The position numbers and the translations under genes were made by a program. A DNA stretch of 64,000 nucleotides from Candidatus Edwardsbacteria bacterium RifOxyA12_full_54_48 (GTDB lineage: Bacteria; Edwardsbacteria; AC1; EtOH8), in contig MFFN01000004.1 in assembly GCA_001777915.1 (NCBI GenBank), forward strand, positions 743,744 to 807,743, written 5' to 3'. Positions 23,608 to 60,927 of this stretch are shown here, in pieces. The notes beneath the pieces were generated by a model. It was not told the DNA's origin and did not search any database. It saw nothing but the letters and a program-made list of their open reading frames with translations. Position 1 is the stretch's first letter. Each line of letters begins with the position of its first letter.

Positions 23608-24894
23608 ATGAGAAAACTACTTAGCCAAAGCCTGGATACCCTGATCAGCCACCTGGGGGTGCTGGCCGTAGGGATGTTTGCCAGCGTTCTGATAAATCGC
23701 ACCCTGGGACCGGAGCTTAAGGGGATATTCGTCTCCTGCCTGCTGATCCCCCAGACGGCGGTGGTGTTCGCCGAACTGGGGCTGGGGACCTCGGGGGCCT
23801 ACCAGCTGGCTAGAAAAAAATATCAGCCGGGCTCGGTGGTTCTGTTCCTGCTGCTGGCCAGCCTGGTCCTGGGCGGCCTGGCTATGATCATCACCGGGGC
23901 GGCGGTGAGATTGCCGGCCGAGGCTTGGGGAGGTTTCAACCGCTTGGTGATCCTGAGCCTGATCCCCCCCGGACTGTGGCTGACCTTCCTGCCGGAGATC
24001 TTTTTGGGCCTGGGTCTGCTTCGGGGCTTTAACTGGTGGAGGGCCGGCTTCCAAGTATTCCGGATTTTGATATTATTGGTTTTCCTGTTTCTGCTCGGCA
24101 ACAAGCTTCAGGCGGTGATCCTGGCCTCGGTGATCCTCAACTGGGCGGCTTTTATCATCTCGGCCGGCGTCCTGTGGGTTCATCTAAGGCCCAGATCTGC
24201 CGCCCTGTCCTTAAGGCAGACAGCGGATTTTTTCAAGTTCGGAATGAAGGTTTTCGCAGGGGAGATCCTTGGTTTCCTGCATTACCGGGCGGATATATTC
24301 CTGATCCTTTTATGGAAAGGCAATGTTCAGGTGGGCCTCTATGCCACGGCGGTCTTTCTTTCCGAGCTGCTATGGATGATACCCCGGGGGCTTTACGCCC
24401 CGGTCTTCTCGGGGCTGGCCCGCGACGGCCTTTCCCGGGACATTGTTAAAAAGGCGGCCCTGCTGACCTTGGCCGCCACCTGCGGCCTGGCTTTGATAGC
24501 GGCCTTTTTGGTCGGCCCCGCCATCCGGCTGTTATACGGAGAGTCCTTTAGCGGCGCCGTCTGGCCTTTTATTCTGCTTCTGCCGGGAACCGTAATGCTG
24601 TCCCTCCCCAAATTTCTGGAGGCGCCGTTGATAGCCGAGATGGGATCTCCCGAGGTGCTGGTCTGGGGCAAGGCTTCCGGATTGCTCTGTAATATCCCGC
24701 TTAACTTCTGGCTGATCCCGAAATACGGGATCTCCGGGGCCGCCGCCGCTTCCAGCATATCCTACACCATCCAGGCCCTGATATTCATCGGACTGTTCAG
24801 CAGAAAAAGATCCCAAGTGATGTCCCCGGAGAAAACCGGGGAATATGCCATTATCAGCCAACACGAAAGCGGCCTGAATGAGATCGCCGATTGA
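23608..24894 (+). CDS. Oligosaccharide flippase (Wzx-like), first of three
   Basis: 428 aa with about 12 transmembrane helices, as expected for the MATE/MOP superfamily of polysaccharide transporters. The N terminus (LISHLGVLAVGMFASVLINRTLGPELKGIF) matches the helix 1-2 signature of this family, and GISGAAAASSISYTIQALIF is the typical late helix. It should flip lipid-linked sugar repeat units across the inner membrane. It opens the polysaccharide locus. The ribosome site is replaced by a stem-loop, so expression may depend on structure. It overlaps the next gene by 17 bases. Confidence 0.87.
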   Translation: MRKLLSQSLDTLISHLGVLAVGMFASVLINRTLGPELKGIFVSCLLIPQTAVVFAELGLGTSGAYQLARKKYQPGSVVLFLLLASLVLGGLAMIITGAAVRLPAEAWGGFNRLVILSLIPPGLWLTFLPEIFLGLGLLRGFNWWRAGFQVFRILILLVFLFLLGNKLQAVILASVILNWAAFIISAGVLWVHLRPRSAALSLRQTADFFKFGMKVFAGEILGFLHYRADIFLILLWKGNVQVGLYATAVFLSELLWMIPRGLYAPVFSGLARDGLSRDIVKKAALLTLAATCGLALIAAFLVGPAIRLLYGESFSGAVWPFILLLPGTVMLSLPKFLEAPLIAEMGSPEVLVWGKASGLLCNIPLNFWLIPKYGISGAAAASSISYTIQALIFIGLFSRKRSQVMSPEKTGEYAIISQHESGLNEIAD

Positions 24895-25996
24895 TATAAT
24901 AAAAAATATCCCTCCCCTGAAAGCCATCAGGCGGAAACTGCAGAAACGGCGGGTGGAGGCCCTACGGCAGCTGGCGTTGGATGGCGGAAAAATACCGCTG
25001 CCCAGAGGGCTGGTGTTCGAGCCCACCCAGCGCTGCAACCTGTCGTGCATCATGTGCTGCCACCGCCAGCATCACACCGAGGGCTCCTGCCAGGAGATGG
25101 ACACCGGAGCCGCTGTCGAATTCATAAAAGAACTAAAAAAACAGCATGATTTCCGGACCATCGGGTTCATCGGCTCCGAGCCGTTTGTCAGAACCGACCT
25201 GGAGGATCTGATGAAAGCGGCAGTGGGTCTGGGCATGGATGTTTCGGTTCAGACAAATTCCACTCTGCTGGATGAAGCGAGGATCAAAACCTGGTCCAGA
25301 CATAAGAATCGGATCAGGAGTTTCGGGGCCTCCCTGGAAGGGGTGGCGGGCGTTGATGACCAGATACGCCCGGGGAAAGATGTCTTCAGCCGGGCCCGCC
25401 GGGGCATAGAGCTGGCGGTGCAGGCCGGCCTGCCGGTGACGGTGAGCATTCTGATACTGGACAGCAACCGGGAAAGGCTGGGGGAGTTGATAGAACTGCT
25501 GAATGCCTTGAGGGTGAGATCGATAGATATTTCACTGATCGTCAACCACAGCCGAGCCGATATAGAAGAGACGGCCCGTTTGTCCGGCATCCGCAAGAAG
25601 GATATCTGCATCACTTCAAAACCGGAGTTGGAATACAAAACAACCCAGTTTCAATTGCTGGAGGACCTGAAATCCGGACTGGCCTTGGGTAAAAATTGCG
25701 GCATGAGGACCAGCACCAGCCCGGAAGGGTTTCTGGCGAATTACCCGAGTATCCGGGACGGCAGCATCAGAAAGAAACACCGGCTGACTTGCGGGGCCCT
25801 GGATACCGTAAGAGTGGACCCCTCGAGCAGGCTGATACATTGCCAGCATTTCCGGCAGAGCTTCGGAGATCTTAGTCAGGTTAAGCTTGCCGAGGCTTGG
25901 AATTCCCCGGGGTTTAGGAATTTCCGAAAAAGACTGGCGGAGGAAAATCTGTTTCCCATCTGCGTGGACTGTTACCGGATGAGGGTCCTGGGATGA
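24878..25996 (+). CDS. Radical SAM/SPASM domain protein
   Basis: 372 aa. The radical SAM cluster is C53-x3-C57-x2-C60 (CNLSCIMC), followed by a GSEPF variant of the GGEP SAM-binding motif. The C-terminal part has the cysteines of a SPASM/twitch domain (TCGALDTVRVDPSSRLIHC, then FPICVDCYRM). A maturase, sugar-modifying or deaminating role is possible; proteins of this type in capsule loci are often of unknown substrate. It overlaps both neighbours (17 bases before, ATGA after), so it is firmly part of the polysaccharide operon. Confidence 0.87.
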   Translation: MRSPIDIIKNIPPLKAIRRKLQKRRVEALRQLALDGGKIPLPRGLVFEPTQRCNLSCIMCCHRQHHTEGSCQEMDTGAAVEFIKELKKQHDFRTIGFIGSEPFVRTDLEDLMKAAVGLGMDVSVQTNSTLLDEARIKTWSRHKNRIRSFGASLEGVAGVDDQIRPGKDVFSRARRGIELAVQAGLPVTVSILILDSNRERLGELIELLNALRVRSIDISLIVNHSRADIEETARLSGIRKKDICITSKPELEYKTTQFQLLEDLKSGLALGKNCGMRTSTSPEGFLANYPSIRDGSIRKKHRLTCGALDTVRVDPSSRLIHCQHFRQSFGDLSQVKLAEAWNSPGFRNFRKRLAEENLFPICVDCYRMRVLG

Positions 25997-36808: not shown

Positions 36809-37861
36809 ATGGATAACCAGAATATCAAAAGCCAGCAAAACAACACCATAAAATACATTGACGTCCTTCTCCAGGATTGGAAGCTGATAGCCTTTATTAC
36901 CGGAGCCATCGGCTTGGTCACCTTGGTATATCTGCTATTCTTCTCCAATCCGGTATATAAGGCCCAGTTGACGATATTGCCGACCGGAGAGGAGGCCGGG
37001 ACATTTTCCGCACTGTCGGTAATGGCCAACGAACTGGGGGTGGATATTCCCGGGACCAAGGTCAAGATCAACACTCCCCAGATCTACCAGCGGATCATCG
37101 CCAGCCAGCGGATGACAGATTCCCTGGCCCAGAAGGCTTATCAGGGAAGAAAGGAGAATGGTCCGCGGACCCTGGCCCAAGTGCTGGGCATCAAGGAGAA
37201 GAATCCGGAACTGATGAGGTATTTTCTTCATGAGGCGGTTATGGGCATGATCAAAATGCCCATCTCCATCAAGGAGGGGACCCTGGATATAATGGTGACC
37301 TTCAAGGATCCCGACATTGCCTCGCAGATGGCCAATTACATCGTGGAGCAGCTGGATACCTACAACAAATATTTTCGCAAAAGCAAGGCCGGCAACAATC
37401 GGAAATACATTGAAGAGCAATTGAGCAAAGCCAGAGAGGACCTGAGGAGGGCCGAACAAAACCTCACCTTTTTTAGGGAAAATAATCGCCAGCTGATGTC
37501 GTCCCCGTCGCTCCAGCAAGAAATGGTCCGCCGGACCAGGGATCTAAGGATTCAGGAAGAAATTTTTGTTATCATAACCAAGGAGTATGAAAAGGCCAAG
37601 CTCCAGGAGATCAAGGATATCCCGATCATCGATATCGTAGAAAAAGCCCGCCCGCCGGCTGTCAAGAGCAACTCCCGGACCAGGGTTTTGCTGGCCTCCA
37701 TAGCTTTCGGCCTGTTTCTGGGAATTGCTTTTATAATCGGCCGGGAATACCTGAAGGAATCAACCATCATAAGCGATATTCAGGCCACCCAGGGCTACCA
37801 GATATTTGCCGGCGACATTAAAAAGATCGTCAATAAAATATTCCCCAAGTTCAGAATATGA
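36809..37861 (+). CDS. Chain-length determinant protein (Wzz/GumC type)
   Basis: 350 aa. Two transmembrane helices frame the protein (residues about 29-48 and 290-310), with a long periplasmic coiled-coil part between them (KARPPAVKSNSRTRVLL precedes the second helix, the usual Pro-rich motif). The Wzz signature YKAQLTILPTGEE follows helix 1. No C-terminal tyrosine kinase is attached. It works with the SLBB exporter to set chain length and form the export complex. The ATGA at its end overlaps the cytidylyltransferase gene. Confidence 0.9.
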   Translation: MDNQNIKSQQNNTIKYIDVLLQDWKLIAFITGAIGLVTLVYLLFFSNPVYKAQLTILPTGEEAGTFSALSVMANELGVDIPGTKVKINTPQIYQRIIASQRMTDSLAQKAYQGRKENGPRTLAQVLGIKEKNPELMRYFLHEAVMGMIKMPISIKEGTLDIMVTFKDPDIASQMANYIVEQLDTYNKYFRKSKAGNNRKYIEEQLSKAREDLRRAEQNLTFFRENNRQLMSSPSLQQEMVRRTRDLRIQEEIFVIITKEYEKAKLQEIKDIPIIDIVEKARPPAVKSNSRTRVLLASIAFGLFLGIAFIIGREYLKESTIISDIQATQGYQIFAGDIKKIVNKIFPKFRI

Positions 37862-38553
37862 ACATCCTGGCCCTGATACCGGCCCGCAGCGGGTCGAAAT
37901 CGATCATCAATAAAAACATCCGGCTGTTGGGCGGTAAACCTATGCTGGCTCATTCCATCGAACATGCCCAAAGGGCAAAGCTTGTCACCAGGATCATTGT
38001 CAGCACCGACAGCCGGCGCTATGCGGCCATTGCCGACAAATGCGGAGCCGAGACCCCTTTTCTGCGACCCCGGGAGATCTCAGGCGATCGCTCGACAGAC
38101 CTGGAAGTATTTATTCATGCCTTGGAATGGCTGCGGCTCAATGAGGACTATCAACCGGAGATCTGCGTACATCTAAGGCCGACCTATCCCATAAGGAATT
38201 CCGAGGATATCGATAAAATGGTCCGGATCATTATTGAAAACCCAGGGATCGATTCCGTCCGATCAGTGGTGCCGGCCCCCGAGACCCCTTTTAAAATGTG
38301 GTTTCGGGATGGCCAGGGAAACCTTTCCCCGGTCATAGCGAACGATATCAAGGAAGCCTATAACCTGCCGCGTCAGTCACTGCCAAAAGCTTATCTGCAA
38401 AATGCTTCTATCGACGTGATAAGAACAAGCGTGATATTGGATAAAAGATCGATGACCGGCGATGTCATTCACGGATACATCATGGATCACTTCTGGGATA
38501 TCGACCAACCGGATCAACTGAAGACCGTCAGAAAGATACTCAAGGCCAAGTGA
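37858..38553 (+). CDS. Acylneuraminate cytidylyltransferase family protein (CMP-sugar synthase)
   Basis: 231 aa, the normal length. The nucleotide-binding N terminus is LIPARSGSKSIINKNIRLLGG, close to the NeuA consensus but with SxSI in place of KGIP. IIVSTDSRRYAAIADKCGAE, HLRPTYPIRNSEDID and VVPAPETPFKMWF follow. It should activate a keto-acid sugar as its CMP derivative. The next two genes encode a small HAD phosphatase and a NeuB-type synthase, so all three probably act on one nonulosonic-acid-like sugar. Confidence 0.9.
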   Translation: MNILALIPARSGSKSIINKNIRLLGGKPMLAHSIEHAQRAKLVTRIIVSTDSRRYAAIADKCGAETPFLRPREISGDRSTDLEVFIHALEWLRLNEDYQPEICVHLRPTYPIRNSEDIDKMVRIIIENPGIDSVRSVVPAPETPFKMWFRDGQGNLSPVIANDIKEAYNLPRQSLPKAYLQNASIDVIRTSVILDKRSMTGDVIHGYIMDHFWDIDQPDQLKTVRKILKAK

Positions 38554-38870
38554 TGGATAATAAGACATTCTGTTTCGATATTGACGGGATCATCATGTCG
38601 CTGGTGCCAGGCAACGATTACTCCCTGGCCCGGCCCCTGCCGGAAACGGTCAGCCTGATAAACCGGCTCTATGATCGGGGCCACCGGATAATATTGTTCA
38701 CCGCCCGCGGCTATGTGACGGGGATCGACTGGGCCGAGACCACCCGGCAACAGCTTGAATCCTGCGGCCTCAGGTACCACCAGCTGATGTTCGGAAAACC
38801 GGCGGCCGATTATTATATCGACGACAGGATGATCAGCTTGGAGCAATTGAAGGACCAGTTCGGCCAATAA
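38553..38870 (+). CDS. Small HAD-superfamily phosphatase
   Basis: 105 aa, starting at ATG 38553 that overlaps the previous stop (TGATG). HAD motif 1 is CFDIDGII (D-x-D with the nucleophile Asp), motif 2 is ILFTARGY, and motif 4 is YYIDDRMIS. There is no cap domain, matching the short HADs found in capsule loci and the KdsC-like group. It likely removes a phosphate from a sugar intermediate made by the neighbouring synthase. Confidence 0.87.
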   Translation: MDNKTFCFDIDGIIMSLVPGNDYSLARPLPETVSLINRLYDRGHRIILFTARGYVTGIDWAETTRQQLESCGLRYHQLMFGKPAADYYIDDRMISLEQLKDQFGQ

Positions 38871-38891
38871 TGCATTTTCTTGGGAGATAAA

Positions 38892-40385
38892 ATGAAAGAA
38901 TTTTTCAAGGGCTTGTTCATCTTCGAGATGGCCAACAACCATCAGGGCAGCGTGGAGCACGGGCTTAGGATCATCGAGGAGATGGGCGCCCTGTCCAAAA
39001 AGCACGGGATCCGGGCCGGGGTCAAGCTGCAGTACCGGGAGCTGGACACCTTCATCCACAAGGACCATATCAATTCCGGGGCGAGCAAGCATGTCAAACG
39101 GTTCCTGGATACCCGGCTGAACGCCAGCCAGTTCCAGCAGCTGGTGCAGGCCATCAAAGAGCAGGGGATGGAGGCCATCTGCACGCCATTCGACGAGCCC
39201 TCGGTGGCCCTGCTGGTGGAGCACGGCATCTCCATCATCAAGATCGCCAGCTGCAGCGCCAACGACTGGCCCCTGCTGGAAGAAATATGCAAGACCGGCA
39301 AGCCGGTGATAGCCTCCACCGGCGGCCTGACCCTGCCGCAGATAGACAAGATAGCCAGCTTTTGCGGCCACCGGCATACAAATTTCGCCCTGCTGCATTG
39401 CGTGGGGGTCTATCCGGCCGGCAACCAGAGCATCAACGCCGGGTTCATAGACAAACTGCGCAACAGGTATCCCGGCACGGCCATCGGGTATTCCGGGCAT
39501 GAGGCTCCGGACAACCTGGATGTGGTAAAGATCGCCGTGGCCAAGGGCGCCCAGATCCTGGAGCGGCACGTGGGGGTGGAGACAGATAAAATAAAACTTA
39601 ACGCCTATTCGATGAATCCGGTCCAGACCGGCAAGTGGCTGGAGGCCGCCCTGCTGGCCAGGGCCATTTGCGGCCCCGGAGAAGACAAGCAGGTCACCCG
39701 GGATGAGCTGGATTCTTTACGGTCCCTGATGAGAGGGGCCTTTGCCGCCGGCCATGTCAAAAATGGGGAGGTCTTGTCCCGGGACAAGGTCTATTTTGCC
39801 ATACCCTGCCTGGAGGGACAGACCACGGCCTTTGAATATCACGAATCGATGACGGCCGCCGGCGATTACCGGCCCGATCAGCCGATAAAGGAGATACGCG
39901 GGGAACGAAGCAAGATAGACCTGGTCCGCAGCGTGGTCCACGAAGTGAAAGGCATGCTTAACGAGGCCAATATAGTGCCGGGTAGCGATGTTTTGATAGA
40001 ACTTTCACATCACTATGGGATCGAACGGATCAGGGAATATGGGGCGGTGATCGTGGACATCGTCAACCGGATGTACTGCAAAAAACTGCTGATAGTCCTT
40101 CCCGGGCAAAAACACCCCACCCACCATCACAAAACCAAGGAAGAAACCTTTCACCTCCTATCAGGCGATATTGAGATAAATCTGGGGGACAACCAGCTGG
40201 TAAAAATGACGCCAGGGGACACCCTGCTGGTTGAACCGGGTACCAGGCACAGTTTTACCTCCCGCAGCGGGGCCATCATCGAGGAGATCTCCACCACCCA
40301 TATCAAGGGCGATTCCTACTACGATGACGAGGCAATAAACAAAAAGGACCTGCTGGAGAGAAAAACAGTAGTGGAGAACTGGTAA
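38892..40385 (+). CDS. NeuB-type nonulosonic acid synthase fused to a cupin domain
   Basis: 497 aa; ATG 38892 has GGGAG upstream. Residues 1-255 are the NeuB TIM barrel: FIFEMANNHQGSVEHGLRII, QLVQAIKEQGMEAICTPFDE, STGGLTLPQID and GYSGHEAPDNL with the metal-binding His. The barrel condenses phosphoenolpyruvate with an N-acyl-hexose. Residues about 262-330 look like a diverged SAF lid (GAFAAGHVKNGEVLSRDKVYF). Residues about 385-480 form a cupin (PGQKHPTHHHKTKEETFHLL, then DTLLVEPGTRHSF) with metal-binding His and Glu. Normal NeuB is about 345 aa, so the cupin is an added module that could process or isomerise the sugar. Confidence 0.9.
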   Translation: MKEFFKGLFIFEMANNHQGSVEHGLRIIEEMGALSKKHGIRAGVKLQYRELDTFIHKDHINSGASKHVKRFLDTRLNASQFQQLVQAIKEQGMEAICTPFDEPSVALLVEHGISIIKIASCSANDWPLLEEICKTGKPVIASTGGLTLPQIDKIASFCGHRHTNFALLHCVGVYPAGNQSINAGFIDKLRNRYPGTAIGYSGHEAPDNLDVVKIAVAKGAQILERHVGVETDKIKLNAYSMNPVQTGKWLEAALLARAICGPGEDKQVTRDELDSLRSLMRGAFAAGHVKNGEVLSRDKVYFAIPCLEGQTTAFEYHESMTAAGDYRPDQPIKEIRGERSKIDLVRSVVHEVKGMLNEANIVPGSDVLIELSHHYGIERIREYGAVIVDIVNRMYCKKLLIVLPGQKHPTHHHKTKEETFHLLSGDIEINLGDNQLVKMTPGDTLLVEPGTRHSFTSRSGAIIEEISTTHIKGDSYYDDEAINKKDLLERKTVVENW

Positions 40386-40389
40386 CAGC

Positions 40390-41280
40390 ATGATAAGACC
40401 ATTAAACTGTGCCCTGTGCGGAAGCGGAAAGATAACCTCAGTCTATAACGGAGCCATTCGGGCCGGGAGTTGGGGGAGCGTTACCTCTAAGAAATACCAG
40501 GTGCTTAAATGCTCCCATTGCGGGGTAATCTTTTTGGATCCTTTTCCGAAAATGAATTACAGCGAAAAGAACTATAGGCTGGACTATAACGGATCGGCGG
40601 AGATCGAAACATACCATCGACTGCACGACAAGGAACAGGCTTGGTACCTTGACTTGGTAAAAGGCCTTGATCTAAGCGGCAAAACGGTCTGCGATGTCGG
40701 CTGTGGGGGCGGGTCCTTCCTGAAACGTATCAAGGGTCAGGCCAAGAGGACCATCGGCATCGAACCTTTTGCCGGATATCACCGGGCCCTGAGAAGCCGG
40801 GGGCATTCAGTTTTCAGCGGGATCGATGCCTTAATGGCGGCTGAAGGAAAATCACAAGTTGACCTGGCAACCAGTTTCCACGTTATAGAGCATGCAGAGG
40901 AACCGGTCGCGTTTCTGAAAAGCATCCGGGAGATATTAAAACCCGGCGGCCGGGCGGTTTTGGTGACCCCCAACGCCGATGATATCCTTATGAAGATGGG
41001 ATCCGGCCCATACCAAAAATTCAACTACCGAACGGCTCATCGTTGGTACTTCAACCAAAGGTCCCTGGGATACATTGCCCGAAAAGCGGGATTTAAAAAG
41101 GCCCGCTTTGGTTTCAGGCAGAACTTCGATCTTTCGAACTTCGCCCTGTGGATGAGGGATGGGAAGCCGACAGGCAACGCCTCGGTTGATCTTTTTTCGG
41201 ACGACATCAACCTGGCTTGGCAGAAGTTTTTGGAAAAGGGCCGGATGGCAGACACCATTATTCTCGGTTTAAGCAAATAA
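40390..41280 (+). CDS. Methyltransferase with N-terminal zinc-binding domain
   Basis: 296 aa. Two CxxC pairs near the N terminus (CALCGS and CSHCGVIFLDPFP) make a zinc ribbon like those in sugar C-methyltransferases. The SAM core follows: VCDVGCGGGSFLKRI, TIGIEPFAGYH, and ATSFHVIEHAEEPVAFL. It belongs to the Methyltransf_11/12 group. The acceptor is unknown; the synthase gene lies just upstream. Confidence 0.9.
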   Translation: MIRPLNCALCGSGKITSVYNGAIRAGSWGSVTSKKYQVLKCSHCGVIFLDPFPKMNYSEKNYRLDYNGSAEIETYHRLHDKEQAWYLDLVKGLDLSGKTVCDVGCGGGSFLKRIKGQAKRTIGIEPFAGYHRALRSRGHSVFSGIDALMAAEGKSQVDLATSFHVIEHAEEPVAFLKSIREILKPGGRAVLVTPNADDILMKMGSGPYQKFNYRTAHRWYFNQRSLGYIARKAGFKKARFGFRQNFDLSNFALWMRDGKPTGNASVDLFSDDINLAWQKFLEKGRMADTIILGLSK

Positions 41281-42430: not shown

Positions 42431-44026
42431 ATGTTTAGTAACCTGCTTTCAAAATTATACTGGAGTTCGATATATAATATTTCCGACATGCTTGCCTTGC
42501 TGCAATCAAGCATTGGCCTGGAACCGGTATATGTCAAGACGGCATACTCGGCCCTGAAGCAGTGGCAGTATAATGTCAACAAAAACAGAGAGACCCATGA
42601 CAAGAAGATCGGGATCGTCGCTTTCCGTAATCATACCTGGGCGGAATGGGCGGCGTTCGCGGCCCATTATATTTACAACATGGGATACCAGCCGGTAGTG
42701 ATTTTCAGCGGCAGGGAAATAGCCAGCCTTTATCCCAGAGACCGCATAATGGAAAAGGCCGGCTTGGATTTCTGGTCGGCGTTTTTAGAGACCGAGTACA
42801 TAGAAAAAGTTGACATTGATAACTTCATCCCCTCAGACGAAAAGACAAAGAACGGCTATTCCGCTTTCGCCGAGGACCACGCCCACACCATGGCGGCTTA
42901 TAATCTTCGGGTGGAAGAGTACGAATCCCATGTAATGGCGGATGAATACCGGCAGGAATACCAGCGATCTTGCAAAATCCTGGTGGAAACGGCGGCAGCC
43001 GCGGAAAAACTATTTTCCGAGATCACCATCGAGAGGCTGATATGCCCTTCCGGACTGATCGGCCGCTCGGCGGCTTTTCTGGAAGCGGCGGCCAGGAAAA
43101 ACATTAAAGCGGTCTTCGTTGAGGGCTGGGCCATGCGTCCCGGGCATATGATATGGGCCTATAATCGTCCGGCATTGATCTATGACATCAAAGGCTGGAT
43201 GGAGGCACTGGGTGAGTGGAATCAACAGAGGGAGAATGATTCCACCATCTTCAGGAATTTCCAGGAATACCTCTCGCTGGACCGGGATGATGAATGGCTG
43301 GAGGATTTTCACCCGGTGCAGAGAAGCACCAAGGATGAAGATTACCCGGCCGACCTACGGAAGTTCCTGTCCCGGCCCGGGCCATTGTTCCTTTGCGGGA
43401 CCAATGTGGTGGGGGACAGTTCGACCCTAAGGCGGGCGGTGGCATTCAAAAACCAGAAGGAGTGGCTGGAAAAACTTATTGCCTACTTTAAGGCGCACCC
43501 AGATCTTCGCCTTATCATACGGGCCCATCCCGATGAGGTATGGCAAAGGGCCAGGGTCAAGATAGGGGATTACGCTGCAGAGCTGGCCAGGGGCATTGGT
43601 AATGTTCAGGTGGTAAAAGGAAGCGATGATGTCAACACCTACTCTCTGGTGGAAAGGGCCGACATCGGCCTGGCCTGGCTCAGCAACATCGGCATAGACA
43701 TGATAATCCGGGGCAAGCCGGTGATCATGGCGGCTTCTCCCAAATATGACGACCTGGGCATCGTGGACGTCCCCAAAACCCAGGAAGAATATTTTAAAAG
43801 GATCGAACAGGTTTTGGCAAGGCCGGTGCCTCCATCCATTGATGTAATAAATAGGGCAAAATATTACCAGCGGATCGTCTTCAAGGAGATGTCGCTGAGG
43901 GCGGCCGGCAAGAATTATTTGACCAGCGAATATCGCATGAACCAAAGGACAGTATTTAACGAAAGGGAAAAATTTTTCCGGATACTGGTGGGCGAACTGG
44001 ATGAAAAGGGCCGCAAGACGGCTTAG
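42431..44026 (+). CDS. Capsule-type GT-B glycosyltransferase, unassigned family
   Basis: 531 aa with no signal peptide or clear helices. The N-terminal half contains GIVAFRNHTWAEWAAFAAHY. The C-terminal half has LRLIIRAHPDEVW with H366-P-D-E369, then LVERADIGLAWLSNIGIDMI and RGKPVIMAA, a donor-binding arrangement like that of capsule transferases (KpsC/KpsS) and sialyltransferases with an HP motif. It sits four genes after the nonulosonic acid synthase group's first member and is a good candidate for using its CMP-sugar. No ribosome site is visible before the ATG. Confidence 0.55.
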   Translation: MFSNLLSKLYWSSIYNISDMLALLQSSIGLEPVYVKTAYSALKQWQYNVNKNRETHDKKIGIVAFRNHTWAEWAAFAAHYIYNMGYQPVVIFSGREIASLYPRDRIMEKAGLDFWSAFLETEYIEKVDIDNFIPSDEKTKNGYSAFAEDHAHTMAAYNLRVEEYESHVMADEYRQEYQRSCKILVETAAAAEKLFSEITIERLICPSGLIGRSAAFLEAAARKNIKAVFVEGWAMRPGHMIWAYNRPALIYDIKGWMEALGEWNQQRENDSTIFRNFQEYLSLDRDDEWLEDFHPVQRSTKDEDYPADLRKFLSRPGPLFLCGTNVVGDSSTLRRAVAFKNQKEWLEKLIAYFKAHPDLRLIIRAHPDEVWQRARVKIGDYAAELARGIGNVQVVKGSDDVNTYSLVERADIGLAWLSNIGIDMIIRGKPVIMAASPKYDDLGIVDVPKTQEEYFKRIEQVLARPVPPSIDVINRAKYYQRIVFKEMSLRAAGKNYLTSEYRMNQRTVFNEREKFFRILVGELDEKGRKTA

Positions 44027-45300
44027 TGCCGGCGGATATTGGTTTGAAACAATTATTCATCAAATACAAGAACATCTCCCTGTTCACCTCTTCGGCTGTG
44101 GTATTGAACCTTTCCAGCCTGATCAGCGGCTTTCTGGTCTATCGCTGGATAGATCCCTACTACATAGGCATCTGGCAGGCCATGATGCTGGTCCAGACCT
44201 ACAGCGCTTTCCTGCGTCTGGGCATCATCAACGGGATGAACCGGGAACTGCCGTTTTGTCTGGGAAAGGGCGACACCGGGCAGGCCTATAAATACGCCGA
44301 GACCGCCCAGTACTATAGTCTGGCCAATATCATAATATTTGCCGTCCTGGCCCTGCCGGCATTTTTCTTTGTAAAAATTAAACCAGACTGGTATTTCCCG
44401 TTGTTCAGCATCGTCATCGTCATCTGCCTGAACTTCTATAATGCCTATCTGGCCGGGACCTTCCGGGCTAATGCCGACTTCGAAAAGCTGTCATATATCC
44501 AGCTCATTGATTCTGCCCTTCGGATCATCAGCCTGGCCCTGGTTTACTTTTACGGGTTCAAAGGATATTGCCTGATGCAGATCTTTCTGGCGGTTTTTAT
44601 CACAGTGATCACGCATTTATGGCGGCCGATAAGGGTCCGGCCGGTGTTCCATCAGGCGGCATTCCAAACATTGCTGAAGACAGGATTGCCCATTTTTGCC
44701 GGATCGTACTTTTTTAATTTTTTCAACACCCTGCCGCGTTTGGTCCTTATAAAATACGGGTCTATAGAGATGCTGGGATTATACGCCCCGGTGCTTACCC
44801 TGATCGGCGCCATGGGCATCCTCCCCGATTCCATCGGAACATATTTGTACCCCAAGCTGTCGTTTCAGCTGGGGACGGACAACGATCCCAAACGCATCTG
44901 GAAGCAGTCATGGAAGTCTCACCTGGCTTTATTGGCCATAGCGATCCCCTTGGCGGTGGCAGGCTATTTGACCATACCATATATCATCGACACTTTCCTG
45001 CCCAAATACATCAGGACCAAGGATATAATAAATCTGGGACTTATGGCAGGTGTGTTCTTCAGCTTTAAATTCGGCTACACCATATTGATCACCCTTAAAT
45101 CATGGGCCTATATGTCTGTCTATATAATTGCTTTCGGCCTTTGCCAGTATTTCTTGCCTTTGGCAACGCTACGATATTATGATCCGCTTAAGGCGGTTGT
45201 CCTGGGACAGGCCATATCCTTCATCGCCATGTATGTCATCTCGATAGCCATCAATTACCTGGCCACCCACAAACTTCGCCGGAACGCTGCCGCACAATGA
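44026..45300 (+). CDS. Oligosaccharide flippase (Wzx-like), third of three
   Basis: 424 aa from GTG 44026, which overlaps the previous stop; TTG 44044 is an alternative. About 12 transmembrane helices. NISLFTSSAVVLNLSSLISGFLVYRWI is the typical first helix region of the MOP superfamily. The loop GTFRANADFEKLSYIQ is common to polysaccharide transporters. It likely flips the repeat unit that includes the sugar made by the preceding module. ATGA overlap with the next gene. Confidence 0.85.
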   Translation: MPADIGLKQLFIKYKNISLFTSSAVVLNLSSLISGFLVYRWIDPYYIGIWQAMMLVQTYSAFLRLGIINGMNRELPFCLGKGDTGQAYKYAETAQYYSLANIIIFAVLALPAFFFVKIKPDWYFPLFSIVIVICLNFYNAYLAGTFRANADFEKLSYIQLIDSALRIISLALVYFYGFKGYCLMQIFLAVFITVITHLWRPIRVRPVFHQAAFQTLLKTGLPIFAGSYFFNFFNTLPRLVLIKYGSIEMLGLYAPVLTLIGAMGILPDSIGTYLYPKLSFQLGTDNDPKRIWKQSWKSHLALLAIAIPLAVAGYLTIPYIIDTFLPKYIRTKDIINLGLMAGVFFSFKFGYTILITLKSWAYMSVYIIAFGLCQYFLPLATLRYYDPLKAVVLGQAISFIAMYVISIAINYLATHKLRRNAAAQ

Positions 45301-49942: not shown

Positions 49943-50875
49943 GTGCCGCTGAACGATCACATAAAAAACAAAGCCCTGACCATCGGCCATCAGCTGTTCG
50001 CCAATCTGCTGGGGTTCCTTAAGATCAAGGCCGGATACATCCGCTCCCGGACCGGCGCCACCCACCGCAAGTTCTCCCTTAAGGACAGCCTGGCTTACAT
50101 CGACAGGATGAAATCTGATTATGACAACTTCGGGTCTTTGGGGGATGTTAGCCGATGGGATATCCTGGAGATAGGCCCGGGTGACAATCTGGGGATCCCG
50201 CTTTTGTATTTTGCCGCCGGGGCAAAAAAGGCCACCGCATTGGACCGGTTCTACTCCTATCGGGACGCTAATCAGCAAAAGGCCATCTATGATGCCCTTA
50301 TTGAGAGGCTGCCGGCAGAGCAAAGGGAACGGGCGGAAAAAGCCTTCAGCGATCGGGCGGAAAGCAAATTCAACCCCGAGGCCATAGAATGCCTTTACGG
50401 AACCGGGATAGACGATCCGAGGATCATCGATCGTCTGGGAAAGTATGACCTGATAATTTCACGGGCGGTGATGATGGAGGTCTGCAATCTGGAGCAGGCC
50501 CTGGAGAACCTGGTCCGGATGCTCAAGCCCGGAGGGCTGATGCTGCACAAGGTCGATTTTAGGGATTACTGGATGCTCTCCAAGCACCATCACCCCCTGA
50601 CCTTTCTGACCATCGACAATAAGCTTTGGAAAATGATGTCCAGCCACCGGGCAAACTCCAACCGCCGTCTTTTAAATGTCTATTGCGAAGAGCTGGGAAG
50701 GTTGGGGTTGACGGTAGAAATACCGCAGCGGACAAAATACCAGGCGAAGGACCACGATGAAAACAAGTGGCTGTCCCAGATAAAAGACAAACTGCTGCCC
50801 CGATATAAAATATTGCCGGACGACATACTGTTAACCAGCGGAGCTTTTATAGTTGCTAAGAAGCCGAACGTCTGA
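49943..50875 (+). CDS. SAM-dependent methyltransferase
   Basis: 310 aa from GTG 49943, one base after the preceding stop; the longer open frame upstream is inside that gene. Motif I is WDILEIGPGDNLGIPLL, strand 2 is ATALDRFYS, and LIISRAVMMEVCNLEQAL with MLKPGGLMLHKVDFRDYW is typical of the class I core. The next gene starts 23 bases inside its end. The substrate is unknown; the position suggests a sugar or lipid carrier. Confidence 0.85.
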   Translation: MPLNDHIKNKALTIGHQLFANLLGFLKIKAGYIRSRTGATHRKFSLKDSLAYIDRMKSDYDNFGSLGDVSRWDILEIGPGDNLGIPLLYFAAGAKKATALDRFYSYRDANQQKAIYDALIERLPAEQRERAEKAFSDRAESKFNPEAIECLYGTGIDDPRIIDRLGKYDLIISRAVMMEVCNLEQALENLVRMLKPGGLMLHKVDFRDYWMLSKHHHPLTFLTIDNKLWKMMSSHRANSNRRLLNVYCEELGRLGLTVEIPQRTKYQAKDHDENKWLSQIKDKLLPRYKILPDDILLTSGAFIVAKKPNV

Positions 50876-52811
50876 CATATTTGCCGCGGCCACCTACCTG
50901 ACCGGCTGGTGCCGTTTGTGGTGGCTGACCCACCGCCACCGGCTGACGGTGCTGGTCTATCATGACCCCTCCCCGGAAAGCTTCCGGACCCATATTAAGC
51001 ACCTGAGCCGATGGTTCAATTTTATCAGTCTGGATGATTTCCTGAGCGGCCAAAGGCTTCCGCCCTGGCCGGCCGTTATAACCCTGGATGACGGATATAA
51101 GAACAATTACAAATTGTTGCCGACGATCAAAGAATTCAAGCTTAAGCCGGTGGTTTACCTGAATTCAGCCCTGATCGGAACCGATGACAGCTTTTGGTTT
51201 GAAAAGATCCCGTACAAACTAAGAGAAACCCTGAAGGAATTGCCGGACGAACTGCGCCTTAAGGCTGTGGCCGAGGGAAAAGAAGCGGGGGCGGAAGGCA
51301 GCTGCCTGACCATGGAACAGATAGGGGAACTGTCATCGGCCGGGGTCGAATTCGGGTCCCATTCCCGCACCCATCCGGTATTGATCCAGTGCGACAAAGA
51401 AAAGATAAAAGACGAGATATCCGGCTCAAAAACGGAACTGGAACAAAAGCTGGGGTTGCCGGTCAAGCACTTTTCCTATCCCAACGGGGATTATAACCAG
51501 CAGATCACCGGCATCGTAAGGGAAAGCGGCTATATAAGCGCCAGGACCATCCGCAACGGCTGCAGCCGGGCCCAAGACGATCCCTTTCAGCTCCGGGCCC
51601 ATAATATTTCCGATGATGCCGGGTATTTCAAGCTGATCTGCCAGAGCTGCGGCCTGTTCGTCCTGCCTTCCATGATCCGGACCTGGGGGGAGAAACTGCG
51701 GGCCCGGCCGTATCGCAAAGAGGATTCCCTCAATGTTCTCTTGACCATCGATTCCCTGGGGGTCGGCGGGGCGGAAAGACAGCTGATAGAACTGGCCCGG
51801 GGCCTGGCGGATAAGCCCGGCATCAACTGCCAGGTGCTGGCCATGTCCCGTCAGGATCATTACACGGCCCTGCAGGATTCCGGGATCATTGTCCACCGGC
51901 TGGTACGCAGGGTCCGGCATGACTGGACCGTCTTCCTTCGGATGTATGGGCTGTTGAAAAAACTGCGCCCCGATATTGTGCATTCCTGGGACTATATGAC
52001 GGCCATTTATGCCCTTCCGGCCTGCAAGTTACTGGGCATAAAGTTCATCAACGGGGCTATCAGGTATTCATCGAAAAGGCTTGACCGGCTGTACAAATTG
52101 AAAGCGGCCGTAACTTTCCCCCCCTCCGACGCCATTGTGGCAAATTCTTTGGCCGGCCTTAAGGTCCACGGGCTCGAAGACAAAAGTAAGGCCCGTGTCA
52201 TAAACAACGGGATCGACCTCGGCCGCTTCAGCCGGGGTAAAGCAAAATCAAAAAAAGATTTGGGCATCACCACCAAGAACGCAGTGGGAATGGTGGCCAC
52301 CTTTTCGGATTACAAAGATTACCCCACATTTGTAAAGGCTGCCCAAAAAATACTTGCAGTCCGTGATGATGTCACCTTCATTGCGGTGGGGGACGGGCCT
52401 GGCCTGGATTCCGTAAAACAGTCGGTATCTGATGAAAACAAGGGGAAGGTCATATTCACAGGCCAGCTGAAGGATGTTGAATCCGTTATACCACTGTTTG
52501 ATGTGGGAGTTTTGGCGACATTTGACGAAGGATTCCCCAATGTGATCATGGAATACATGGCCTGCAAAGTACCCTCAGTCGCCTCTGGGGGCGGTGGTAC
52601 CGGGGAGCTGATCAATGACGGGCGTAACGGTTTTTTGGTGCAACAGGGGAATGTCGAGCAAATGGTTGAAAGGATAGTCTCCTTGCTCGATGACGGAAAG
52701 CTGGCGGCGGAAATGGGGGCCAGGGGATATGAAATGGTCTGCAATTTAAGCCATACGGCGATGACGGTTAAATATCTGGAACTATACCGTCACACCTCGG
52801 GAAAAAGATAG
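50853..52811 (+). CDS. Fusion of polysaccharide deacetylase (NodB) and GT4 glycosyltransferase
   Basis: 652 aa from TTG 50853. Residues about 30-270 are a NodB domain: TLDDG with D79-D80, GSHSRTHP with the HxxxH metal motif, and HFSYPNGDYNQQ. Residues about 285-645 are a GT4 with LTIDSLGVGGAERQLIELAR, VINNGIDLGRFS and FDEGFPNVIMEYMACKVPSV (E-x7-E like). Both halves keep their key residues. One polypeptide could thus add a sugar and remove an acetyl group from it or its neighbour. The start overlaps the methyltransferase gene by 23 bases. Confidence 0.9.
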   Translation: MLRSRTSDIFAAATYLTGWCRLWWLTHRHRLTVLVYHDPSPESFRTHIKHLSRWFNFISLDDFLSGQRLPPWPAVITLDDGYKNNYKLLPTIKEFKLKPVVYLNSALIGTDDSFWFEKIPYKLRETLKELPDELRLKAVAEGKEAGAEGSCLTMEQIGELSSAGVEFGSHSRTHPVLIQCDKEKIKDEISGSKTELEQKLGLPVKHFSYPNGDYNQQITGIVRESGYISARTIRNGCSRAQDDPFQLRAHNISDDAGYFKLICQSCGLFVLPSMIRTWGEKLRARPYRKEDSLNVLLTIDSLGVGGAERQLIELARGLADKPGINCQVLAMSRQDHYTALQDSGIIVHRLVRRVRHDWTVFLRMYGLLKKLRPDIVHSWDYMTAIYALPACKLLGIKFINGAIRYSSKRLDRLYKLKAAVTFPPSDAIVANSLAGLKVHGLEDKSKARVINNGIDLGRFSRGKAKSKKDLGITTKNAVGMVATFSDYKDYPTFVKAAQKILAVRDDVTFIAVGDGPGLDSVKQSVSDENKGKVIFTGQLKDVESVIPLFDVGVLATFDEGFPNVIMEYMACKVPSVASGGGGTGELINDGRNGFLVQQGNVEQMVERIVSLLDDGKLAAEMGARGYEMVCNLSHTAMTVKYLELYRHTSGKR

Positions 52812-52850: not shown

Positions 52851-54710
52851 ATGTGCGGAATAACCGGATTAATTCATCTGGAAAGCCAAAGGAAAGCTGA
52901 CCGGTCCAAGATCAAGCGGATGGCCGACAGCATTGCCCACCGCGGCCCGGACGGCGAGGGGTTTTATGTCAACGGACCGCTGGCATTGGGCCATCGGCGG
53001 TTGTCCATCATCGACCTTAAGACCGGCGACCAGCCCATGTTCACCGAAGATAAGCGGCTGACCATAGTTTATAACGGAGAGATATACAATTATATCGAAC
53101 TCAGAGAAGAACTGTCTTCGCTGGGGCATGTCTTTAAAACGGATTCCGATACAGAGGTCATTCTGAATGCCTATACACAGTGGGGAGAGGATTGCCAGCT
53201 GCGCTTCAATGGGATGTGGGCCTTTGCCATCTGGGATGCTAAAAATGGTTCATTATTTCTTTCGCGGGACCGCTTGGGCGAAAAACCACTGCATTACGCC
53301 CTCTATGATAATTCTCTTCTTTTCGGATCCGAAATAAAAAGCCTTTTGGCCTACGGCCTGCCCAAGAGGCCGGATAACAGGATGACGGAGATATATCTCG
53401 GCTTGGGATATGTCCCGGCGCCGTATTCTTTTTATGAGGGGATTTTAAAGCTTGAACCGGGCTGCTGCCTTTCTGTGGTTGACGGGAAGATCAGTCTGAG
53501 AAGATACTGGGAACTGCCAGATATTTCTGAAGCCGAACTGATCGGGGATAGACCGAAGGTCAATGAGACATTTTTAGAATTATTGACGGATTCGGTTCGC
53601 CTGCGAATGCGGAGCGATGTGCCTTACGGGGCTTTTTTAAGCGGCGGCCTGGATTCCTCCAGCCTGGTGGCGATGATGTCGGATATCAGCCAGCATCCGG
53701 TAGAGACCTTTACCGTTGGTTTTGAGAACGCCGATTTTGATGAAAGAGCATTGGCCAGACAGGTGGCTGATAAATTCGGGTGCCGGCACCATGATGGGAC
53801 AATCACTGCAGAAACTTTGACGGAATCACTTTCAAGGGTTTTGTCATACACGGATGAGCCATTCGGCGACTCATCGGCCATAGCCACCGGCTACGTAGCT
53901 GAATATGCCAGAAAAAATGTCAAGATGGCCATAACCGGGGACGGCGGGGATGAAGTGCTATCCGGTTATTCCAGCTATCAGTCAGAAAAACTGTCTGGTT
54001 TTTTGCATAGATTTCCAAGGGGCCTAAGAAAGGGAATCCCTTCAGTAATAAAATTCATCAGCCGTCCGGTTGGCGGGCGGTGGCGATATAAAACAGACCG
54101 ATTTATAAATGTTCTGGATTCTGCCGGTGACAGCTTCCAAAACAGGCTTCTGAACAAAGCCAGCTGGATGGACCCCAGAATGCTGCGGGAGATCATTTCC
54201 AGTGAAAGCCAGGGAGCCATTCATTTGGATGAATATCTCGAACAGAAAATGGCGCAATGCCGGTTCAAGGATGGATTCTACCGGAATATGTATTATAATT
54301 TCAAATTATCGCTGCCGGAGGACATGCTGGTGAAGGTTGACCGGATGGCCATGTCCCATTCTTTAGAGACCCGGGCCCCGTTCTTGGATCACCGGCTGGT
54401 GGAATATATGTACCGGGTGCCTAAGGATATAAAAATGAAAGGGTTTCAGCGTAAAAGCATTTTACGCGATACTGTCGGCAAAAGACTTCCGGAGGCCGTC
54501 AGGCAAGCGGGTAAAAAGGGATTTGTGGTCCCCCTTAGGGATTGGTGCCGCGATCCAAATATGGCCCCGGCCTTGGATGACTTATGGAAAACAGACTGGG
54601 GTTTGAATCAAAATATGGTCAAGCAGGCCGTAGTGGAAAATGCGAACGGAACAGCCGACAACGGCAATTTTATTTGGATGATGCTGTTGTTAAAGCAATG
54701 GATGATATAA
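52851..54710 (+). CDS. asnB: Asparagine synthase-type amidotransferase, copy 1
   Basis: 619 aa. Cys2 begins the Ntn-type glutaminase (CGITGLIHLE; RGPDGEG and YNGEIYNYIELRE). The synthase PPi loop is S264-G-G-L-D-S-S. VDRMAMSHSLETRAPFLDHR and the late KKGFVVPLRDW are conserved. The family can make asparagine, but in polysaccharide and exosortase-type loci such proteins are thought to amidate sugar carboxyls. It is 9 bases from the next GT4 gene. Confidence 0.92.
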   Translation: MCGITGLIHLESQRKADRSKIKRMADSIAHRGPDGEGFYVNGPLALGHRRLSIIDLKTGDQPMFTEDKRLTIVYNGEIYNYIELREELSSLGHVFKTDSDTEVILNAYTQWGEDCQLRFNGMWAFAIWDAKNGSLFLSRDRLGEKPLHYALYDNSLLFGSEIKSLLAYGLPKRPDNRMTEIYLGLGYVPAPYSFYEGILKLEPGCCLSVVDGKISLRRYWELPDISEAELIGDRPKVNETFLELLTDSVRLRMRSDVPYGAFLSGGLDSSSLVAMMSDISQHPVETFTVGFENADFDERALARQVADKFGCRHHDGTITAETLTESLSRVLSYTDEPFGDSSAIATGYVAEYARKNVKMAITGDGGDEVLSGYSSYQSEKLSGFLHRFPRGLRKGIPSVIKFISRPVGGRWRYKTDRFINVLDSAGDSFQNRLLNKASWMDPRMLREIISSESQGAIHLDEYLEQKMAQCRFKDGFYRNMYYNFKLSLPEDMLVKVDRMAMSHSLETRAPFLDHRLVEYMYRVPKDIKMKGFQRKSILRDTVGKRLPEAVRQAGKKGFVVPLRDWCRDPNMAPALDDLWKTDWGLNQNMVKQAVVENANGTADNGNFIWMMLLLKQWMI

Positions 54711-58971: not shown

Positions 58972-60927
58972 GTGAAATTAAACAAAACCAAAATGACTAT
59001 CCAGTGGTATATAAATAGATTAAAGTGTATGAGTTCTGGCGAAATTGTATTTAGGCTCAGACAGCATGTAAAAAAGATATATGAAAACATAAGGTATCAG
59101 CACAGATATTTCCCAAAAGTCCATTTGATGTTGCCGGCCTATAATATATTTAACGTAGATAATGCGGAGACAAGGATAGATTCAATTACAGTAACAATAT
59201 TTGGTAAAAAGATAGATCTCGGGCCAAAAATAAATTGGCACAAGGATTACTGCACCGGCAAAGAATTTCCCCAAGAATTCTCAAAGAATATTGATATCGA
59301 AAATGAAAAATATGGAAGTGTAAAACCTGTTTGGGAGCTAAATCGTTTACATTTTATGCCTAAGCTGGCATTGGGTTATAGAAAATTCAACAAACAGGAG
59401 GATTTGGATTTATTTATCAGTATTACGAGTTCGTGGATAGATGATAACCAGTATTTTAAGGGTATAAATTGGTTTAGCAATATTGAAGTAAACCTAAGGT
59501 TAATAAGTTGGTTTTGGTCCTGGAATTTTTTAGAGGCCAGTAAGCTACTTGAATATAATAAGGAATTTAAAGACTTTGTTGAGAAAAAATGGGTACCAGC
59601 AATATATTTACATTGCAAATATAGCTCGGGCAATCGTTCAAAATACTCCTCCGCTAACAACCACTTGATTGCAGAAGCTACCGGCTTGTTTGTCTCTGCT
59701 AATTTATGGAAATTTAAGGAATCCGAAAAATGGTTAAAAGATTCAAAGCACATTTTGGAGAAGGAAATAGTAAAACAGCATACGGTGGAGGGTATTAATA
59801 GAGAAGAGGCTGCCGGGTATATCAAATTTGTGACGGATTTATTCATGTTGGCATACATTGTTGGGGAAAAGACTGGGAATAGATTCTCGGATGTTTATGT
59901 CAAATGTTTAAAAAATATAACATACTATATAAGCAACTTGGTGGATAATAAAGGTAATGTGCCCGGATACGGTGATGACGATGATAGTGTGATACTTTCA
60001 TTAGATTCGCATGATAAGGTAAATAATTGGCAATCGTTATTGTGTTCTGGTGCGACAATATTTCAGGATCCTGTTTTGAAATCTATAACAAATCGGTTTG
60101 ATTTTAAAAATCAAGTGCTTTTCGGAAATGGTGGAGAAAATATATATAATTCAATATTAGCCGATAAAAAGCCAAGAGAAAGCATTTTATATAAAAATTC
60201 AGGACATTTCATTCTAAGAAAAGAAACCGGGGCCAAAGAAATATACATGCATCTTAAAAATTCGCCATTGGGATACTTGTCCATTTCTGCACATGGGCAC
60301 GCCGATGCGCTATCTTTCACCCTAAATGTTGATGGGTTCCCATATTTTATTGATTCTGGAACTTATTCCTACGGTGCGAAACCAAAGTGGAGAAATTATT
60401 TTAAAGGCACTTTAGCGCATAATACGATAAGGGTAGATAAAAAAGACCAGGCAACGATTGGCGGACCAACAATATGGCTGGACCATTATAAGTGTAAATT
60501 AATCAAAGCTGAATCCAATCCAGAAATGGATTATATACTTGCCACCCATGACGGTTATAGAAAATCCGGGGTAGAACATGTCAGGGAAATAACATTTATT
60601 AAGAACAAAAATCATTTTATAATACGGGACATGATACAGATTAATGATAGCAAGTTGCATATTATCGAAATCCCGTTTCATCTAAACCCCAAGACTGAAG
60701 TGTTGAGCATAGATAAAAACAACTATTTATTGAAACACGATAATAGTCGTGCGGTGTCAGTTCAGTTAGATAATCGTTTAAGCCCGGAAATAATATCGGG
60801 ACAAGATGAACCAATACTGGGTTGGTATTCTAACGCGTATTTCCATAAAGAAAAAGCCCGGGTTATTTATAATCAAATAAAAACCAACAAATCAATTGTA
60901 ATAACAAATAACATAATAATAGAATGA
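58972..60927 (+). CDS. Heparinase II/III family protein, AT-rich
   Basis: 651 aa from GTG 58972 (ATG 58993 is possible). The N terminus TIQWYINRLKCMSSGEIVFRLRQH is the conserved opening of heparinase-like proteins in polysaccharide loci. An all-alpha toroid follows (NWFSNIEVNLRLISWFWSWNF). The C-terminal beta-sandwich holds H441-G-H443-A-D445 (active-site region), FIDSGTYSYG and LAHNTIRVD. No signal peptide is seen. It may cut or remodel the polymer, or be a glycan-modifying enzyme without lyase activity. Confidence 0.88.
   Translation: MKLNKTKMTIQWYINRLKCMSSGEIVFRLRQHVKKIYENIRYQHRYFPKVHLMLPAYNIFNVDNAETRIDSITVTIFGKKIDLGPKINWHKDYCTGKEFPQEFSKNIDIENEKYGSVKPVWELNRLHFMPKLALGYRKFNKQEDLDLFISITSSWIDDNQYFKGINWFSNIEVNLRLISWFWSWNFLEASKLLEYNKEFKDFVEKKWVPAIYLHCKYSSGNRSKYSSANNHLIAEATGLFVSANLWKFKESEKWLKDSKHILEKEIVKQHTVEGINREEAAGYIKFVTDLFMLAYIVGEKTGNRFSDVYVKCLKNITYYISNLVDNKGNVPGYGDDDDSVILSLDSHDKVNNWQSLLCSGATIFQDPVLKSITNRFDFKNQVLFGNGGENIYNSILADKKPRESILYKNSGHFILRKETGAKEIYMHLKNSPLGYLSISAHGHADALSFTLNVDGFPYFIDSGTYSYGAKPKWRNYFKGTLAHNTIRVDKKDQATIGGPTIWLDHYKCKLIKAESNPEMDYILATHDGYRKSGVEHVREITFIKNKNHFIIRDMIQINDSKLHIIEIPFHLNPKTEVLSIDKNNYLLKHDNSRAVSVQLDNRLSPEIISGQDEPILGWYSNAYFHKEKARVIYNQIKTNKSIVITNNIIIE

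Follow-up and report, generated by a model that had tools for sequence, protein, structure and literature searches.

Which sugar do three neighbouring genes of Candidatus Edwardsbacteria bacterium RifOxyA12_full_54_48 build and activate? The genes lie in a 64,000-nt stretch of contig MFFN01000004.1 (here called the window; coordinates are positions within it unless a locus number precedes them). They encode a cytidine monophosphate (CMP)-sugar synthetase, a small HAD phosphatase and a synthase in which a NeuB barrel, of the kind that condenses phosphoenolpyruvate (PEP) with a sugar, is fused to a C-terminal cupin (NeuB-cupin). The best-supported reading, to which we give an even chance, is that the trio forms a pathway complete in itself that makes a CMP-activated ulosonic acid, most likely CMP-KDN (KDN, 2-keto-3-deoxynononic acid). 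Domain identities, conserved catalytic residues, the linkage and fusion of the genes and the family to which the cupin belongs are shown here; we infer the order of the reactions, the phosphorylated substrate and the KDN product. An initial annotation had described three overlapping or adjacent genes at 37858-40385 and assigned to them the activation, dephosphorylation and PEP condensation of a nonulosonic acid-like sugar. The open reading frames, domains and gene order agree with this description, and the three steps are well supported by domains and conserved residues.

37858..38553, + strand: CMP-sugar synthetase (CTP_transf_3; NeuA/PseF-like), 231 aa (Pfam E 4e-21)
38553..38870, + strand: small HAD phosphatase, with its ATG start at 38553, 3 bases inside the listed GTG frame (38550)
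38892-40385, + strand: NeuB-SAF-cupin synthase (Pfam NeuB E 8e-41, Cupin_2 E 8e-12)
38892..39860, + strand: NeuB part (PEP-condensing TIM barrel) with SAF domain (Pfam NeuB E 8e-41)
39876..40385, + strand: C-terminal cupin, D-lyxose/D-mannose isomerase-like (profile and Foldseek matches, metal ligands)

A conserved three-gene module

The start of the CMP-sugar synthetase gene overlaps the stop of a Wzz-type gene, its own stop shares TGATG with the start of the HAD gene, and 21 bases separate the latter from the NeuB-cupin gene, for which we prefer the ATG at 38892 (GGGAG upstream) over the TTG at 38880. The overlaps suggest that the trio forms a single transcription and translation unit. The synthetase carries the PARxGSK motif of NeuA/KdsB-type enzymes in its CTP_transf_3 domain and matches the NeuA structure 6ifd (E 1e-26), while its score against the PseF model (115 bits) stays under the cut-off of 205.7. 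The small HAD protein has no Pfam match and was matched to PDB entry 9iqw, a "capsule biosynthesis protein" (E 1e-15), on whose function a literature search returned nothing. Judged by its length it is a capless phosphatase, and the motifs D10/D12 (DxD), T51, K83 and D91/D92 (numbered from the GTG at 38550) are kept in at least 48 of 51 aligned rows.

From a single scan across 84,980 genomes we obtained 350 sequences related to the synthase, of which the best 80 all cover the whole or nearly the whole fusion. These at least 80 full-length relatives are spread over more than 12 phyla, including Verrucomicrobiota, Chloroflexota, Acidobacteriota, Bacteroidota, Bacillota, Pseudomonadota, Myxococcota, Gemmatimonadota and several candidate phyla. 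In a maximum-likelihood tree the phyla are partly interleaved (8 changes for Pseudomonadota, 5 for Verrucomicrobiota) and the window protein has no close kin; the fusion is also absent from all nine of the nearest genomes (same genus or family). Such a patchy spread fits an exchange among surface-polysaccharide loci, although the tree does not prove transfer. No full-length relative was found in the viral contigs and plasmids searched, and a literature search on the NeuB-cupin fusion found no description of it.

The partner genes recur with the synthase. A CMP domain is present near NeuB-cupin in 69 of 81 loci, and a relative of the small HAD in 50, in 49 of which the two form one protein with the HAD in frame after the cytidylyltransferase; the window holds the split form. 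Its synthetase shares 51-66% identity with the N-terminal half of the fused CMP-HAD proteins that adjoin most NeuB-cupin genes, and a frameshift seems less likely than a natural split, given the clean TGATG overlap. Four genomes in which NeuB-cupin has no adjacent CMP gene were tested, and all carry a close copy (53-56%) elsewhere, in an open frame of 343-362 aa that is long enough for a CMP-HAD fusion. With the same three genes found together in dozens of unrelated genomes, the trio is a conserved module and not a chance neighbourhood. Loci that miss the small HAD have other HAD proteins instead, either as a separate gene (L088, L098, L100) or, in a member of the Gemmatimonadales (L095:9956-12238), at the C terminus of a triple NeuB-cupin-HAD fusion with the cytidylyltransferase gene directly downstream. 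This exchange of the phosphatase for unrelated versions suggests that the dephosphorylation step matters and that the product of the synthase is very probably a phosphate.

Additionally, about 20 loci (L057, L063, L072-L075, L078-L083, L086, L087 and others) possess a diverged cytidylyltransferase with 29-35% identity, usually fused to the same small HAD. In 15 loci the surroundings of NeuB-cupin include a gene for a Gfo/Idh/MocA-like oxidoreductase; in 10 of the 15 this gene lies two genes upstream, and in L075 it immediately precedes the diverged CMP-HAD gene. Loci with the diverged CMP-HAD protein and the oxidoreductase could make a second product.

Synthase barrel and sugar pocket

The initial annotation had named a barrel without PEP-binding residues as the finding that would speak against it. 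These residues are present: K45, Q47, K117, S120, S142, S201, H203, E224 and H226 of the window protein are conserved, and in an alignment to Neisseria meningitidis NeuB the PEP and metal residues (E25, K53, K129, S132, S154, S213, H215, E234, H236 in the meningococcal enzyme) are kept in 81-82 of 82 members. With this site fully conserved, the barrel does not look like a degenerate synthase. The AlphaFold model of the whole fusion (predicted local distance difference test, pLDDT, 93; predicted template modelling score, pTM, 0.86) matched 3g8r and meningococcal NeuB 1xuu in Foldseek, with template modelling (TM) scores to the target of 0.94 and 0.75, respectively. Both the predicted fold and the PEP and metal residues place the enzyme in the NeuB superfamily of PEP-condensing ulosonic acid synthases.

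The sugar pocket differs. Arg314 in the SAF domain of meningococcal NeuB contacts N-acetylmannosamine (ManNAc), probably positions its N-acetyl group, and the R314A variant is inactive (PMC6795526). At this position the 82 NeuB-cupin members have Met (72), Phe (6) or Ile (4, among them Ile304 of the window), so that the "diverged lid" of the initial annotation is real; 18 separate NeuB homologues, drawn from this data set as controls, have Arg (13), Lys (3) or Ser (2). Further changes throughout the family concern Glu134 (Ser), Asp247 (Asn) and Asn184 (Gly, Ser or Ala). Replacement of the ManNAc-reading residues, Arg314 included, implies that the substrate is probably not N-acylated, and the pocket together with the fused isomerase points to a non-acylated aldose, probably formed directly from fructose-6-phosphate. 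The loss of these residues also fits the earlier proposal that the cupin acts on a different hexose.

The window synthase, which lacks Arg314, scores 128 against a cut-off of 400 in the NCBIfam N-acetylneuraminate synthase equivalog and 112 bits against 340 in that of PseI. NCBI models thus score the proteins of the trio as weak NeuB, PseI and PseF. Pathway predictors take homologues of NeuB and NeuA for sialic, legionaminic or pseudaminic acid genes, and the NeuB-cupin family could be misread in this way.

Cupin domain

In hmmsearch the profile of the cupin domain found the D-lyxose isomerase 2y0o (1e-18) and the Thermofilum lyxose/mannose isomerase 7nzo (4e-18), each in two collinear stretches. 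With the AlphaFold model of the cupin alone (pLDDT 95) as the Foldseek query, the ten best PDB matches were all D-lyxose isomerases, including fructose and mannose complexes, ahead of any general cupin. The metal-binding histidines reported earlier are in place, since H411, H413, E418 and H453 (numbered from the ATG at 38892) are all present in the window; among 82 rows H411 is found in 75 and the other three in all, and K398, Y395, E465 and D474 are invariant alongside them. By profile and predicted structure the cupin is thus a relative, collinear over its whole length and with its metal ligands, of the D-lyxose/D-mannose ketol-isomerases, and the isomerase role suggested for it in the initial annotation is well supported. 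Stand-alone relatives of the cupin exist in L016 and L017.

Proposed pathway and alternative products

Taken together, a manno-specific ketol-isomerase fused to a PEP-condensing synthase without recognition of an N-acyl group, and the phosphatase and CMP synthetase that accompany them, suggest the following route. The cupin would isomerise a ketose phosphate (fructose-6-phosphate) to a manno-configured aldose phosphate (mannose-6-phosphate), which the fused NeuB barrel would join with PEP to KDN-9-phosphate; the small HAD would remove the phosphate and the cytidylyltransferase would activate KDN to CMP-KDN. The sugar may then be moved to a surface polymer, either by a KpsC/S-like transferase encoded at the locus or, in flagellated relatives, by a Maf transferase. 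Mannose-6-phosphate is the known substrate of KDN-9-phosphate synthases, and the route from it through KDN-9-phosphate to CMP-KDN is known (PMC6200933). Since the solved cupin relatives 7nzp and 7nzq bind fructose and mannose, KDN-9-phosphate synthases use mannose-6-phosphate and a precedent exists in Serratia (see below), the known sugar KDN is the default product. The suggestion of a sugar not yet described is possible and goes beyond the evidence, which supports KDN better. If the proposed route is true, KDN or a KDN-like sugar would be far commoner on bacterial surfaces than thought, including the flagella of gut Lachnospiraceae, and CMP-KDN could be obtained from fructose-6-phosphate, PEP and cytidine triphosphate (CTP) with two or three purified proteins.

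Three observations weigh against this route. The solved cupin relatives act on free sugars, not on phosphates. H411 is replaced by Gln in 7 of the 82 rows; together with H408, which is Asn in 7 rows, this suggests a subgroup with an altered metal site. Finally, another phosphomannose isomerase is encoded in 18 of 21 genomes checked, including that of the window, so that the fused enzyme is not needed for supply, and the idea that the cupin makes up for a missing phosphomannose isomerase is weak. The fusion may serve channelling or an equilibrium pull, or the true substrate may differ. It is this redundancy that keeps our estimate for KDN at an even chance and gives some weight to another lyxo-configured sugar.

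For such a sugar, the logic of the pathway would be the same and the cupin would make a different aldose phosphate, for example lyxose-5-phosphate from xylulose-5-phosphate or a heptose-7-phosphate from sedoheptulose-7-phosphate, leading to an undescribed 8- or 10-carbon ulosonic acid. We consider this a real, if minority, possibility. Lyxose gives the cupin family its name, the sugar pocket of the barrel departs from ManNAc synthases at several positions together, and a fused isomerisation would be redundant if it yielded mannose-6-phosphate; yet the ligands of the solved relatives 7nzp and 7nzq are mannose and fructose, the architecture finds its parallel in the KDN system of Serratia, and no such sugar in known glycans has been linked to these organisms. 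A wider version, in which NeuB-cupin and CMP-HAD constitute a widespread and undescribed one-operon route from a plain ketose phosphate to a CMP-ulosonic acid for both capsules and flagellin, with a skeleton unlike KDN, Kdo (3-deoxy-D-manno-octulosonic acid) and the known nonulosonic acids, appears rather unlikely.

It is very doubtful that a diverged synthase makes an N-acylated nonulosonic acid of the Neu5Ac (N-acetylneuraminic acid), legionaminic or pseudaminic type from precursors supplied by genes elsewhere. The homology to NeuB and NeuA/PseF and the Maf linkage in Lachnospiraceae would fit such a product, as Maf enzymes usually transfer N-acylated nonulosonic acids. On the other hand, the Arg that reads the N-acetyl group is missing in all members, the usual bacterial N-acyl pathways need no phosphatase step such as the one that accompanies the module, the module has no NeuC (the absence of which beside the trio was noted already in the initial annotation), and a second NeuB, where present, is mostly a separate ordinary enzyme. 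In the window genome NeuB-cupin is the sole NeuB-family enzyme, as in 5 of 20 other genomes checked.

That genome also encodes a separate KdsA (PF00793 match, named by eye) and KdsB. With a sole NeuB-family enzyme and its own KdsA and KdsB, the module depends on no other nonulosonic pathway and is not the housekeeping route to Kdo; as a replacement of the ordinary Kdo pathway it was rejected. Synthesis of Kdo-8-phosphate from arabinose-5-phosphate by NeuB-cupin for a capsule linker is likewise highly unlikely. In its favour, L025 has a SIS-CBS isomerase gene (KpsF/KdsD type) immediately downstream, L077 and L070 have one no more than 10 kb away, and a KpsC/S-like transferase adjoins the module in the window and six other loci. 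Against it, ordinary KdsA and KdsB are present in the own genome, just 3 of 80 loci have a SIS-CBS gene nearby, and such a gene is expected regardless in capsules exported by ABC transporters with a Kdo linker. In L025 (L025:11550-12542) the SIS-CBS gene follows right after NeuB-cupin and is itself followed by an apparent ABC-2 capsule exporter.

Least probable is a cupin that acts as a sensor or structural domain while the barrel draws its aldose from the cell, for although most hosts have separate phosphomannose isomerases and the sister structure 3g8r lacks a cupin, all 82 rows retain H413, E418 and H453, and K398, Y395, E465 and D474 are invariant as well, as catalysis would predict.

Genomic context and possible use of the product

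The trio is housed in a long polysaccharide locus. Directly upstream are a chain-length gene of the Wzz/Wzc type and the gene of a protein that by eye is Wza-like; the following genes lie downstream.

40390..41280, + strand: S-adenosylmethionine (SAM)-dependent methyltransferase, possibly a tailoring enzyme (Methyltransf_23 E 1e-24)
42431..44026, + strand: Capsule_synth (KpsC/KpsS-like) protein, candidate CMP-sugar transferase (PF05159 E 2e-9)
44026..45300, + strand: Wzx-type flippase (Polysacc_synt_3 E 3e-6)
from 63082: UDP-GlcNAc 2-epimerase, open-ended frame (PF02350, 321 bits)

In the window and in L026, L046, L029, L034, L043 and L037, a KpsC/KpsS-like protein (PF05159) is encoded no more than about 2 kb from NeuB-cupin and a flippase gene is also near. 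In the six loci other than the window the distance to NeuB-cupin stays within about 1.6 kb, the KpsC/KpsS-like protein is 33-43% identical to that of the window, and the flippases are 26-37% identical. Against the PDB the window protein gave a marginal match (8fuw, KpsC, E 0.83). KpsC/S enzymes use CMP-Kdo, which makes the KpsC/KpsS-like protein the best candidate for a transferase of the CMP sugar. In Lachnospiraceae, flagellin and MptE/Maf-like genes accompany the module; the Maf family attaches nonulosonic acids to flagellin. The methyltransferase directly follows NeuB-cupin in the window, L037 and L093, with copies 38-40% identical in the latter two.

The UDP-GlcNAc 2-epimerase, which the initial annotation had correctly placed 23 kb after the trio, is by eye of the WecB type rather than NeuC. 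A link to the trio is unsupported, given this distance and type and a synthase without the N-acetyl-reading Arg. The same polysaccharide locus also contains a radical SAM/SPASM protein (24878-25996) with glycosyltransferases downstream, a polysaccharide deacetylase-glycosyltransferase fusion (50853-52811), two asparagine-synthase-like proteins (52851-54710 and 61084-62982) and a heparinase II/III-like protein (58972-60927).

Comparison with known systems

If the product is KDN, the chemistry is known, and the NeuB-cupin architecture and its spread are, as far as we found, undescribed. The closest solved structure to the NeuB barrel and SAF domain is 3g8r from Chromobacterium violaceum ("spore coat polysaccharide biosynthesis protein E"), with 49% identity and Phe at the Arg314 position; it differs in being 350 aa long and cupin-less, and no paper on its function was found. 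N. meningitidis NeuB (1xuu and others) and PseI (8h2c) share the overall fold and, as aligned to NeuB, the PEP and metal residues. They have no cupin, and their sugar-pocket residues Arg314, Glu134 and Asp247 are replaced in NeuB-cupin. The D-lyxose/D-mannose isomerases (2y0o of Bacillus subtilis; 7nzo, 7nzp and 7nzq of Thermofilum; 3mpb of E. coli O157) share fold, motif order and metal ligands with the whole cupin, to which they are 13-24% identical in structure alignments, but are stand-alone enzymes of free sugars and not fused to a synthase.

A further sister synthase without cupin, 36% identical and with Ile at the Arg314 position, is encoded in L114 (L114:1339-2478, - strand), next to genes that by eye encode a thiamine pyrophosphate (TPP) enzyme, a short-chain dehydrogenase/reductase (SDR) and a 3-dehydroquinate-synthase-like protein. 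This set resembles the sfm flagellin-modification operon of Shewanella and may represent a distinct pathway. The sfm operon itself (PMC3765264) was rejected as the same module, as it combines a cupin-less NeuB with a TPP enzyme and an SDR and is a relative in kind.

The KDN pathway of Bacteroides thetaiotaomicron and Prymnesium parvum (PMC6200933) follows the same logic of PEP condensation with a sugar phosphate, a HAD phosphatase and CMP activation. The likeness is one of pathway logic; no fused isomerase is described there, and here the CMP and HAD domains are usually fused. In Serratia marcescens KL1/KL2, a NeuB with a COG1082 domain is required for the KDN capsule, and neuA and neuB are the two sialic acid genes noted (PMC9000132). 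This NeuB likewise carries a sugar-isomerase-type domain, which is a xylose-isomerase-like TIM barrel unrelated to the cupin, and no HAD is reported at the locus (PMC9000132). A similar architecture occurs in our data set in L009 (L009:280-2226, - strand), where a NeuB-SAF protein fused to a xylose-isomerase-like TIM barrel (PF01261, AP_endonuc_2) is one of the two control homologues with Ser in place of Arg314.

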